Shown: in pieces, positions 7,889 through 11,795 of the stretch
How positions within the stretch are numbered: the stretch's first letter is position 1
Layout of the letters: every line of letters starts with the position of its first letter
Virus record (IMG/VR): IMGVR_UViG_3300043411_000614
Span: 1-20,118 of that record
DNA: 20,118 nucleotides
Source: a virus
Direction: 5' to 3' (one strand)
Program-made: the position numbers and the translations under genes
Notes under the pieces: model-generated
What the model was told of the DNA's origin: nothing
Seen by the model: only the letters and a program-made list of their open reading frames with translations
Database searches by the model: none

Positions 7889-10081
7889 ATGGCTAAAAAA
7901 GAAAAATCAGAAGAAGTAATCGGAGACGTTTCGATTAAGCAGTTAGACGCTTATTTAAAAGCAAATAAGAAGGATCATCTTAATTATGATGAACAAGTAA
8001 ATTGGGTGGCGTCAACAGGGTCATTGGAATTTGACGCTGAGTTAGGGGGCGGATTTGGTCCCGGTGCTTATAAAGTTGCGGGAGCTTCATTTGCTGGCAA
8101 GGCGCAGCCAGTTAATGAACCTGTTTTAACAGCGAACGGATGGGTTCCAATTGGATCTTTGAAAATTGGAGATAAAATTATTAATTCAGAGGGTGGAGAA
8201 CAAGAAATTTTAGGCGTTTTTCCGCAAGGTAAAAAGCAGATTTACGAAGTAATCTTTCATAGTGGAGCTAAAACAAGATGTTGTGATGAACACTTGTGGG
8301 AAACCACAACCGTAAACGAAAAGAGATACGGGGGCAAGTCCATTAAACCATTAAGTTATATTAGAAAAACATTGAATTATGGAGCCAGAAATAATCACAC
8401 AATTAGAATTGTTAAGCCTATAGAGTTTTCTGATAAAGATCTTGTTTTGGACCCATATCTTTTAGGGGTGTTGCTTGGAGATGGGGGGATAACAGAGCGA
8501 GTAGACATAACAAATACAGACCAAGAAATTTGGGATTACGTTAAAATGTCGTTGAGAAGTCAATTTCCAGATGAAGAGTGGTCCCTTTCTGGAGACGGAA
8601 TTACGAAAATAATTGTTTTTAAAAAACAAACATCAAACCCACTTAAAAATATCTTGAAGGAAATGAGTCTTTATGGATTAAGATCTCATGAAAAATTTAT
8701 TCCAGAAGAATATCTTCTCTCTCCGATTAAAGATAGGGAGGCGTTATTACAAGGTCTAATGGATACGGATGGATTTATTTCGCCATCAAAAACAGAGTTG
8801 GTTTATTATTCAACATCGGAAAAATTGGCAGACGGAGTTCTTCATTTGGTTCGGTCACTAGGGGGGCTGGCGAGAAAAAAATTTAAGAAATCAGGGTATA
8901 TAAACAACAAAGGAGAAAGAGTGTCTTGCAAAGACTGCTTTATTATATCTTTTTATCTTCCAGAAGGAATAACTCCTTGTAGATTGACCAGAAAGGCGAT
9001 GCTTTATAGGCAGAGAATTCAATCTTTTGAAAACACAATTATTGGCGTAGAGCATAAAGGAGAGGATGAATGCGTTTGTATTAAAGTTTCATCGTTAGAT
9101 TCGATGTATGTTACAAAAGATTTTATTTTAACTCACAATACGAATTGCGTTTTGCAATGCGTTAAGAACGCTCTTGAAACGATTCCTAATTCAAAAGGTC
9201 TTTGGGTCAAAGCGGAAGGAAGGTTAGATCAAGAAGTTCAAGACAGGTCTGGAGTTAAGTTTGTTTATAAAGCCGAAGAGTGGCAAGTGGGAACGTGCTT
9301 CGTCCTTGAGACTAATATTTTTGAATTGGTAACAGATCTCATTAATAATCTAATCAAGAATAACCCTTCTGAAATTAGGTATGTTATGGGTATTGATTCT
9401 ATGGATGGTTTGATTCGTCGCGCCGACATGGAAAAGGATGCAGAAGAAGGGGAGCGGGTAGGAGGCGGAGCATTACTTACCTCTGTAATGTTTAAAAAAG
9501 CAAACCTTGTTCTTAATAAGAAAGGTCATGTTCTTTTTATGATTCACCAAATCCGCGCTAAAATTGAAACAAATCAATATGCGCCGAAAGATCAAAACAA
9601 ATCAGTTGGTGGTGGCGGGGCAAATTCTGGAGTTCACAGTTCAAATCAGGTTTGGAATTTTAGGGGAAGAACTAAACAGGTTAATATTGAAGAAAAAGGA
9701 AAAGTAGTAGGACATTATTGTGTTGTTGATCTAACTAAAGGAGTTAAAGAGCAAATTGATATTCGAGTTCAATATCCGGTTAGGCACGGAAGGAAGGGCG
9801 GAAAGTCTGTTTGGCTTGAGTATGAAATTTCTAATCTTCTTGTAAAATGGGAACTTGTAGAAAAGGCAGGATCTTGGCTTAAATTTGAGAAAGATTTTAT
9901 TCTAGAACTGCGTTCGCAAGGATTTAGCGTTGGAGAGGAAAAAATTAATAAAGAAACCAGTGAAAAAATTTATGAATTCTCTGTTCAAGGAGATGCCAAA
10001 TTAAAAGATTGGTTGGAAGAAAATCCAGCTATTACAGATTATCTTTATAAGAAATTTCTTAAAATGTTTACAGAAGAATGA
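7889..10081 (+). CDS. recA: Phage RecA-like recombinase precursor with intein
   Basis: This 730-residue precursor would splice to a RecA-like protein of about 384 residues that forms filaments on single-stranded DNA and drives strand exchange. Extein features: Thr-Gly-Ser-Leu...Gly-Gly-Gly (43-55); Walker A split as Gly65-x4-Gly70-Lys71 | intein | Thr418; Glu443 in Lys-Ala-Glu-Gly-Arg-Leu-Asp, matching the RecA catalytic Glu; Walker B strand Tyr-Val-Met-Gly-Ile-Asp (498-503); Gln554 in His-Gln-Ile-Arg, the nucleotide-sensing position; and a Gly-rich DNA-binding loop at 574-581. The frame is open upstream to 7829, but ATG 7889 follows the preceding stop and an AT-rich tract and begins a normal RecA N-terminus. 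The last 110 residues are less conserved. Without splicing the ATP site is destroyed, so splicing should be essential. Its stop overlaps the next start (ATGA). Confidence 0.85.
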   Translation: MAKKEKSEEVIGDVSIKQLDAYLKANKKDHLNYDEQVNWVASTGSLEFDAELGGGFGPGAYKVAGASFAGKAQPVNEPVLTANGWVPIGSLKIGDKIINSEGGEQEILGVFPQGKKQIYEVIFHSGAKTRCCDEHLWETTTVNEKRYGGKSIKPLSYIRKTLNYGARNNHTIRIVKPIEFSDKDLVLDPYLLGVLLGDGGITERVDITNTDQEIWDYVKMSLRSQFPDEEWSLSGDGITKIIVFKKQTSNPLKNILKEMSLYGLRSHEKFIPEEYLLSPIKDREALLQGLMDTDGFISPSKTELVYYSTSEKLADGVLHLVRSLGGLARKKFKKSGYINNKGERVSCKDCFIISFYLPEGITPCRLTRKAMLYRQRIQSFENTIIGVEHKGEDECVCIKVSSLDSMYVTKDFILTHNTNCVLQCVKNALETIPNSKGLWVKAEGRLDQEVQDRSGVKFVYKAEEWQVGTCFVLETNIFELVTDLINNLIKNNPSEIRYVMGIDSMDGLIRRADMEKDAEEGERVGGGALLTSVMFKKANLVLNKKGHVLFMIHQIRAKIETNQYAPKDQNKSVGGGGANSGVHSSNQVWNFRGRTKQVNIEEKGKVVGHYCVVDLTKGVKEQIDIRVQYPVRHGRKGGKSVWLEYEISNLLVKWELVEKAGSWLKFEKDFILELRSQGFSVGEEKINKETSEKIYEFSVQGDAKLKDWLEENPAITDYLYKKFLKMFTEE
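8102..9139 (+). mobile_element. Class 3-type intein with LAGLIDADG endonuclease
   Basis: This in-frame, 346-residue intein (precursor residues 72-417) sits between Lys71 and Thr418 of the RecA P-loop. It starts with Ala, not Cys or Ser. Block A shows Pro-Val-Leu-Thr-Ala-Asn-Gly-Trp (7-14) and Ile-Gly-Asp (22-24). Block B is Cys-Cys-Asp-Glu-His-Leu-Trp (60-66), with His64 and Trp66. Block F has Cys326 where class 1 inteins have Asp. It ends Thr344-His345-Asn346, and the +1 residue is Thr. Trp66, Cys326 and Thr344 are the Trp-Cys-Thr signature of class 3 inteins, which branch through the block F Cys instead of residue 1. The endonuclease has both LAGLIDADG-type motifs, Leu-Leu-Gly...Gly-Asp-Gly (120-128) and Leu-Leu-Gln-Gly-Leu-Met-Asp-Thr-Asp-Gly (215-224), likely catalytic Asp127 and Asp223, and a Lys198-Phe-Ile-Pro motif. 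No disruption is seen, so splicing and homing may both be active. Confidence 0.85.
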
Positions 10082-10466: not shown

Positions 10467-10649
10467 ATGAAGGCCGAATATACAGAAAAATATGTCAACG
10501 ACATTTGGGATAAGATTTTTTATTGGCAAGATGTTTCAGACGAATTAGCGACATTAGTTGAAGAGTATTTTGGTCAAAATTTCGGGGATTATTCTTCGCA
10601 TAGTTGTCGCGTTTTGGAAGCCATTAAATATTTAAAATCTAAAATTTGA
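10467..10649 (+). CDS. Small acidic hypothetical protein (60 aa)
   Basis: This 60-residue protein has a helix with Trp14 and Trp20, an acidic middle and Tyr/Phe-rich residues 33-43 (Glu-Tyr-Phe-Gly-Gln-Asn-Phe), then a basic C-terminal helix. Not recognised. ATG 10467 lies six bases after the preceding stop. Its stop overlaps the TTG start of the nuclease gene (TTGA at 10646). Confidence 0.5.
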   Translation: MKAEYTEKYVNDIWDKIFYWQDVSDELATLVEEYFGQNFGDYSSHSCRVLEAIKYLKSKI

Positions 10650-11047
10650 AACTTCTTAATATTTATAACCGTGAAGTTAATGTAAACGTAACAAAATATC
10701 TCATAGATTGGGACAAAATCGTTAGCAAGCCCCAAAAACAAGTTAAAGACGCATTAAAACCAATCTGGCAAGGACAATTAGTATGCGAAGAGTTTAGGAT
10801 TCCTTCTTCTAAAATGAGGATTGACCTTATTAATTTTTCTTTAAAAATAGTAGTAGAAGTATCGCCGAAGGGCAGTCATAAATTCAACAAGTTTTTTAAT
10901 AAGAACCGCTCTAACTTTTTAAGCGCCGTTAAGAGAGATATTTCAAAAGCCGAATGGTGCGAGAATAATGGATTTAGATTTGTGGAGATAGTGGATGAGG
11001 ATCTTAAGAAAGGAAATATAGTAAATAAGGTGTTAGAAGAAGATTGA
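10646..11047 (+). CDS. PD-(D/E)XK-type nuclease, first paralogue (DUF559/Vsr-like)
   Basis: This 133-residue protein pairs with the protein at 11358. Both share a core of the form Tyr-Leu-Ile-(Asp/Asn)-Trp-x-Lys, then Leu-(Lys/Arg)-Pro-(Ile/Phe)-Trp, a Ser/Gln-x-Lys/Arg turn before Ile-Asp, a hydrophobic strand with Glu and a His, and Asn-Gly-Phe-(Arg/Lys)-(Phe/Met)-Val near the end. Here the presumed active site is Asp60, Glu71 and possibly Ser73/Lys75, with His78; the Asp-Gly usually after Glu is replaced by Ser-Pro-Lys, so activity may differ. Related folds include DUF559 and Vsr nicking endonucleases and small resolvases. The TTG start is supported because the N-terminal 25 residues align with those of the second paralogue. 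It is coupled to the preceding gene by a 4-base overlap. Confidence 0.5.
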   Translation: MKLLNIYNREVNVNVTKYLIDWDKIVSKPQKQVKDALKPIWQGQLVCEEFRIPSSKMRIDLINFSLKIVVEVSPKGSHKFNKFFNKNRSNFLSAVKRDISKAEWCENNGFRFVEIVDEDLKKGNIVNKVLEED

Positions 11048-11134: not shown

Positions 11135-11368
11135 ATGACCGCACTTGATTTTTTATGTTCAATTCCTCATGTTCCGATGGTTCTTCATGGGAACGAACCG
11201 CGCAAAGCATCCAATTCAGAAAGAAGGAGATGGTTAGAAAACTCTTCTGTATTAATTAACGGCGCGAAACCAAAACCATTTGATGAAATTCAATTTCCAA
11301 TAGAGCAACTTATCTTTTTCCCGAAAAATCAGAAAAGCAGATGCACTATGATAGACTATGTTATTTAA
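11135..11368 (+). CDS. Conserved-type phage protein with SNSE-RRW motif
   Basis: This 77-residue protein resembles small phage proteins with the order: Gly-Asn-Glu-Pro-Arg-Lys-Ala-Ser-Asn-Ser-Glu (20-30), Arg-Arg-Trp-Leu-Glu-Asn (32-37), Val-Leu-Ile-Asn-Gly (39-43), then Phe-Pro-Ile-Glu-Gln-Leu-Ile-Phe-Phe-Pro-Lys (53-63) and Arg-Cys-Thr (68-70). This pattern is familiar to me from prophage proteins of unknown function near replication genes. It has its own promoter and the CGAACGA repeats upstream. It lies between two paralogous nucleases and overlaps the second by 11 bases, so it may work with them. Confidence 0.6.
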   Translation: MTALDFLCSIPHVPMVLHGNEPRKASNSERRRWLENSSVLINGAKPKPFDEIQFPIEQLIFFPKNQKSRCTMIDYVI

Positions 11369-11795
11369 AATTCTAGACTCCCAAAAGCTAGTTGATATAA
11401 AAGTCCAGAATTATTTAATTAATTGGAGTAAGAAAATAACAAGGGGCGGCAAAAAGAATTTTGGCAAATTTCAGTTTGATGTAAAGCGCCTTTTGCGGCC
11501 TTTTTGGGAAGAAGACATAGTGCTAGAGGAAATGCCCGTTCCGGCTTTATCGGGGCAACGCGGCAAGTCTATTGATATAGTGAATATTACTCAGGGGATT
11601 TGTGTTGAATGTGACGGCGAGCATCACGGGAAGGTCGGCTGGATGCACAAAGATAAAGAATGTTTGAGAAAACAACTTTATAGGGATGATTATAAATTAA
11701 GATGGGCCGAATTGAATGGATTCAAAATGGTCAATATTTATGAAGACGATGAATTAAATATTGGACTTCTAAAAAGACTGGAAATTCTCCCTTGA
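11358..11795 (+). CDS. PD-(D/E)XK-type nuclease, second paralogue (DUF559/Vsr-like)
   Basis: This 145-residue protein shows the clearest nuclease motif of the pair: Lys-Ser-Ile-Asp73-Ile-Val, a turn, then Cys-Val-Glu84-Cys-Asp86-Gly-Glu-His-His (82-90), matching the Asp...Glu-x-Asp-Gly...His active site of DUF559/Vsr-like enzymes. A Lys/Arg-rich helix (97-110) and the strand Leu-Asn-Gly-Phe-Lys-Met-Val-Asn (119-126) follow, as expected for the fold. Likely role: cleavage of branched or mismatched DNA in recombination or replication. It differs from the first paralogue mainly in the active site, which looks complete here. Its 3' end carries the promoter for the next gene. Confidence 0.6.
   Translation: MLFKILDSQKLVDIKVQNYLINWSKKITRGGKKNFGKFQFDVKRLLRPFWEEDIVLEEMPVPALSGQRGKSIDIVNITQGICVECDGEHHGKVGWMHKDKECLRKQLYRDDYKLRWAELNGFKMVNIYEDDELNIGLLKRLEILP

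Follow-up and report, generated by a model that had tools for sequence, protein, structure and literature searches.

Background

The reading frame considered here lies in a 20,118-base IMG/VR virus record (called the window below) and encodes a RecA-family recombinase that is interrupted within its ATP-binding loop. What is the insert, how would it leave the protein, and how did it reach this site? The original prediction was that the insert is a class 3 intein in the P-loop of RecA, an arrangement not known to have been described.

Class 3 inteins lack a nucleophile at position 1 and are recognized by a Trp at B:12, a Cys at F:4 and a Thr at G:5 (PMC7891396, PMC7664689); by 2020, 1,701 of them had been counted (PMC7891396). 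They have been described in phages, and the junction GK/T (the slash marks the point of insertion here and below) is known as the 'classic' P-loop intein site (PMC5050341). P-loop inteins in RecA and RadA are also stated by a review (PMC5874633). Our preferred reading, to which we assign a probability of about 0.92, is that a class 3 intein in the window, equipped with a LAGLIDADG homing endonuclease, interrupts the Walker A motif of a UvsX-like phage recombinase at its Lys/Thr junction and would splice by the chemistry expected of its class. The anatomy of the insert, its site, its class, the empty sites and the incongruence with its hosts were computed and are presented first.

Results

Insertion into a UvsX-like recombinase gene

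The extein is a RecA-family protein of the UvsX-like branch, with a match to phrog_97 (2.8e-20) and a Walker A motif reading GASFAGKT, and it also matches RecA chains of the PDB in phmmer searches. The host had been named RecA; membership of that family stands, but identity as a cellular RecA was rejected in favor of the UvsX-like designation, with PF00154 reaching 20.3 bits against a gathering cut-off of 27. The intein comprises residues 72-417 of the precursor, beginning with AQPVNEP, ending with THN and containing no stop codon in the translation of 8102-9139 (Table 1). It is preceded by Lys71 and followed by Thr, and the flanks join as GASFAGK/T. In ten intein-free relatives of the host gene the sequence is continuous exactly across the Lys/Thr junction, and 84 intein-free UvsX loci read GKT (82) or GKS (2) at this point. 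The boundaries of the intein are therefore not guesswork, and these empty sites bear out the predicted insertion exactly between the Lys and Thr of Walker A.

Table 1 Features of the intein-bearing recombinase gene in the window
Feature	Position	Strand	Evidence
Precursor gene, UvsX-like RecA-family recombinase plus intein, 730 aa	7889-10081	+	phrog_97 (2.8e-20); PDB RecA chains (phmmer); single open frame
N-extein, 71 aa, with Walker A GASFAGK (8081-8101) at its end	7889-8101	+	Runs directly into C-extein in intein-free relatives
Class 3 intein, 346 aa	8102-9139	+	Residues, motifs, splicing-domain tree
Block B His64-Leu65-Trp66 (Trp B:12)	8291-8299	+	His in 252/252 relatives; Trp in 238/252 (count biased upward)
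First LAGLIDADG motif YLLGVLLGDG (Asp127)	8456-8485	+	Asp in 233/252 relatives
Second LAGLIDADG motif LLQGLMDTDG (Asp223)	8744-8773	+	PF14528 and PF05204 above cut-off; Asp in 250/252 relatives
Block F Cys326 (F:4), predicted branch-point nucleophile	9077-9079	+	252/252 relatives; aligns with block F Cys of MchDnaB1 and MsmDnaBi1
Block G Thr344-His345-Asn346	9131-9139	+	Translation; alignment of relatives
C-extein, 313 aa plus stop, first residue Thr+1 (Walker A Thr)	9140-10081	+	Alignment with intein-free UvsX

Two paralogous small ORFs (10646-11047 and 11358-11795; 31% identical) lie 3' of uvsX, the former with a weak, below-cut-off likeness to Tox-REase-9, which has a restriction-endonuclease fold. 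Their homologues also follow uvsX in L013, L248, L056, L014 and L099; uvsX and these nuclease-like ORFs thus appear to form a conserved neighborhood.

Assignment to class 3

The residues of the intein are those of class 3. Position 1 is Ala, with neither a Cys, Ser or Thr nucleophile nor, therefore, the Cys/Ser first nucleophile of class 1. Trp66 follows the block B His64 at B:12, Cys326 at F:4 aligns with the Cys of class 3 and the Asp of class 1 inteins, and Thr344 (G:5), His345 and Asn346 are followed by Thr at +1. The original prediction had read the start at Ala72 of the precursor, the Thr-His-Asn end, the +1 Thr and the places of Trp66, Cys326 and Thr344 in the same way, and translation agrees with it throughout. 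Among 252 aligned relatives, His64, Cys326, Thr344 and Asn346 are unchanged in all, and Trp66 is found in 238, a count biased upward by scans partly seeded on CC.EHLW. Ala is the position 1 residue in 186 of the 252; across the relatives this position holds Ala, Ser, Gly, Glu, Cys, Met, Leu or Phe.

A splicing-block tree included the window intein, ten class 1 inteins and, as class 3 members of solved structure, MchDnaB1 and MsmDnaBi1. The class 1 inteins split from all class 3 inteins at 98/89, and the window intein grouped with the solved class 3 pair. Forcing it into class 1 cost 29 log-likelihood units, but with only 122 columns the AU p was 0.066 and the tree by itself does not settle the matter; from residues and tree together the class is clear, and assignment to class 1 or 2 was rejected. 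Every sequence feature named for class 3 is thus present, and a splicing-domain tree, proposed beforehand as a check that could have placed the intein in class 1 or 2, sets it beside the structurally solved members of class 3.

Some phage inteins depart from this pattern. Lactococcus phages LW81 (L330) and 949 (L336) carry closely similar inteins at the same GK/T of one ATPase, with Cys at position 1 in LW81 versus Ala in 949, the block F Cys in both and the block B Trp in neither; they may represent a natural pair at the boundary between classes 1 and 3. Terminase inteins of Vibrio phage VCO139 (L332) and Synechococcus phage B23 (L335) have the block F Cys and sit on long branches close to the class 3 inteins of mycobacterial DnaB, and that of VCO139 lacks the block B Trp (EDHIN).

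Endonuclease domain and relatives of the intein

Both LAGLIDADG motifs had been described as apparently intact. The sequences LLGVLLGDG and LLQGLMDTDG indeed keep their Asp residues (127 and 223), and the Pfam families PF14528 (2.6e-8) and PF05204 (5.7e-5) are over their cut-offs. A structure model of the intein, built on an alignment of 30 relatives, reached a mean pLDDT of 95 and a pTM of 0.92. With this model, Foldseek retrieved the two-domain intein-endonuclease PI-SceI (E 2e-19), followed by TliVMA, I-DmoI and the MchDnaB1 splicing fold. The endonuclease domain of a homing intein is accordingly seen in the two motifs, their acidic residues and the PI-SceI-like fold. Sequence and model together indicate a full-length class 3 intein whose LAGLIDADG homing endonuclease is predicted to be active.

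At 2.9e-34, intein-bearing phage terminase families align with nearly the entire intein, and 389 phage records match it over at least 80% of its length; because of these matches the likeness is not due to chance. The nearest inteins reside in unrelated phage and bacterial NTPases (SNF2-type helicases, PhoH, terminases, DnaB-like helicases and a MoxR-like ATPase), mostly at GK/T or GK/S junctions.

Other inteins at the UvsX site

Scans with the intein revealed four further distinct class 3 inteins at the same GK/T junction of UvsX-like recombinases (L353/L354, L355, L056 and L248); when the UvsX extein was the query, only intein-free genes came up, and 86 UvsX loci are without an intein. The L354 intein is identical to that of L353 and lies on a second contig, and L248 comes from a bacterial MAG, where it lies on a short contig. 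The UvsX-site inteins are 37-52% identical to each other. Position 1 is Glu in L353/L354, in contrast to Ala in the window, and the second LAGLIDADG Asp, intact in the window, is lost in L056 (DTGNG), whose endonuclease is therefore probably decayed. Among cultured phages, a query with the L248 precursor gave no record covering 80% of it, and hence no close UvsX-intein arrangement there. Additional intein-like matches on the L056 viral contig (G002:C1:77719-78423) fall within a neighboring 789-aa ORF, which also matches the DnaB-like protein of the window.

Distribution and probable mobility

Two well-supported groups emerge among the five UvsX inteins, one of the window and L353 and one of L056, L355 and L248. 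The window and L353 inteins are sisters (100/100) and 52% identical, versus 39% identity between their recombinases. In the recombinase tree, the partner is instead an intein-free gene in both cases, L013 for the window (60%) and L100 for L353 (89%); a single clade of the five intein-bearing recombinases is rejected (AU p = 5e-8), and at least four changes of intein state are required. On either side of a clean junction at which the intein is present in L354 and absent from L100, the two share 77-80% nucleotide identity. The distribution is thus patchy, with 86 intein-free UvsX loci and incongruence between intein and host, as in homing inteins. Since the sister inteins are more alike than their hosts, whose closer relatives are intein-free, and the single host clade is rejected, lateral spread by homing into one codon junction is indicated as the simplest reading. 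Inteins of class 3, the rarer type, appear to move between phage recombinases that are only distantly related.

The intein-free allele of L013 may escape the window endonuclease, because only 18 of the 40 bases at its target site agree with the flanks of the window intein. The gene uvsX is the least conserved of those common to the window and this close relative (L350/L351). Between the two, amino acid identity in codons 1-240 of uvsX is 54-66% as against 84-93% in the immediate neighbors, and identity at fourfold sites is 36% (close to random) near the insertion, 66% in the 3' part of uvsX and 54% in other genes. This contrast could be an imported (co-conversion) tract left around the intein by homing; we do not claim it, since the test (Fisher p about 0.012-0.014) is post hoc and divergence is seen in other genes of the pair as well.

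Discussion

Precedents for the arrangement

The closest solved counterparts, MsmDnaBi1 and MchDnaB1 (PDB 6bs8, 6rix; PMC6195587, PMC7664689), share with the window intein the Trp-Cys-Thr set, the block B His, the Thr-His-Asn end and insertion into Walker A. They differ in their DnaB host, a Ser at +1 (PMC6195587), the lack of an endonuclease in these mini-inteins, and a block B of DxxH rather than CxxH. Mycobacteriophage TerL1-a occupies the same 'classic' Lys/Thr junction, and mycobacteriophage TerL inteins of the same layout splice, some of them also cutting empty sites (PMC5050341). The phage terminase inteins of phrog_19299, to which the full-length match above belongs, have a packaging ATPase as host, and the Phrappuccino intein is about 33% identical to that of the window. 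The RadA intein of Pyrococcus horikoshii probably belongs to class 1. Like the window intein, it interrupts a RecA/Rad51-family strand-exchange protein at the P-loop and, unlike it, is an archaeal mini-intein without an endonuclease; it has been well studied (PMC5790916).

Given the classic GK/T site, the class 3 intein in the P-loop of M. smegmatis DnaB (PMC6195587) and the 1,701 class 3 inteins counted, the mechanism, the architecture and the type of site are already known, and the UvsX host appears to be the new part. The supposed lack of precedent holds only in part. We found no report of a class 3 intein in UvsX or RecA in the literature searched, whereas the P-loop site is a classic one (PMC5050341), P-loop inteins of RecA and RadA have been reviewed (PMC5874633), and our scans add the four further UvsX examples.

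Proposed mechanism

The splicing chemistry, with its requirement for Cys326, the endonuclease activity and the inactivity of the unspliced recombinase are what we infer from the sequence. Cys326 would attack the Lys71-Ala72 bond to form a thioester branch, Thr+1 would take over the N-extein from Cys326 in a second branch, cyclization of Asn346 would release the intein, and an acyl shift would leave GASFAGKT and a restored ATP-binding loop. By analogy with P-loop RadA, which reportedly lacks ATPase activity when unspliced (PMC8529194), unspliced UvsX should be without ATPase activity. The endonuclease would cut intein-free uvsX at its Walker A codons, and recombination repair of the cut gene would copy the intein in. 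In T4, homing repair uses UvsX (PMC2988022); if this phage is like T4, splicing would have to come first for the recombinase to take part in homing of its intein.

Alternative explanations

Could the intein be a conditional switch and not a plain parasite, with splicing responsive to redox state or DNA damage timing the recombinase, as proposed for DnaB class 3 and RadA P-loop inteins? In MsmDnaBi1 an oxidized block F Cys inhibits splicing (PMC6195587), in P-loop RadA splicing is conditional (PMC5790916), and the window intein has additional Cys residues at 60, 61 and 324. The partner in DnaBi1, Cys48, nevertheless has no counterpart, the aligned window residue being Ile, which removes a DnaBi1-like redox pair, and an intact endonuclease with a patchy distribution suits a mobile parasite. 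We consider a switch unlikely, although the two readings do not exclude each other.

Vertical inheritance of an old UvsX intein, followed by repeated precise loss in most lineages, is quite unlikely. It would agree with sparse sampling and with a single origin of the five UvsX inteins, which is neither established nor rejected (AU p 0.49), but sister inteins that are more alike than their hosts are the opposite of vertical descent, and the window and L353 hosts each have a closer intein-free relative.

We hold a class 2-like chemistry, in which Thr+1 attacks the N-junction directly and Cys326 is not a nucleophile, to be very improbable; class 2 inteins, too, have no nucleophile at position 1, and the window has Thr+1, yet Trp B:12, Cys F:4 and Thr G:5 form the class 3 set, Cys326 is invariant among the relatives, and the intein groups with solved class 3 inteins. 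A splicing-dead remnant or assembly chimera is hardly credible, as no supporting point was found in the sequence, while the catalytic residues and both endonuclease motifs are kept in a single open frame and the same layout recurs in five other contigs.

Conclusions

With the class 3 homing intein as the preferred reading, a phage strand-exchange recombinase would join the proteins invaded by class 3 inteins. The matched intein-plus and intein-free alleles (the window with L013, L354 with L100) offer material for tests of homing and P-loop specificity, and another full-length class 3 intein with Thr at +1 may be of use in protein engineering. A bolder extension, which we regard as doubtful, is that class 3 inteins repeatedly invade the UvsX P-loop, that splicing gates the mobility of the intein itself, since the precursor before splicing would be without the activity required for its spread, and that conditional splicing would make it a switch of phage recombination. 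Because the host is the enzyme of T4-type homing repair, splicing, recombinase activity and the spread of the intein would be tied together in one molecule.
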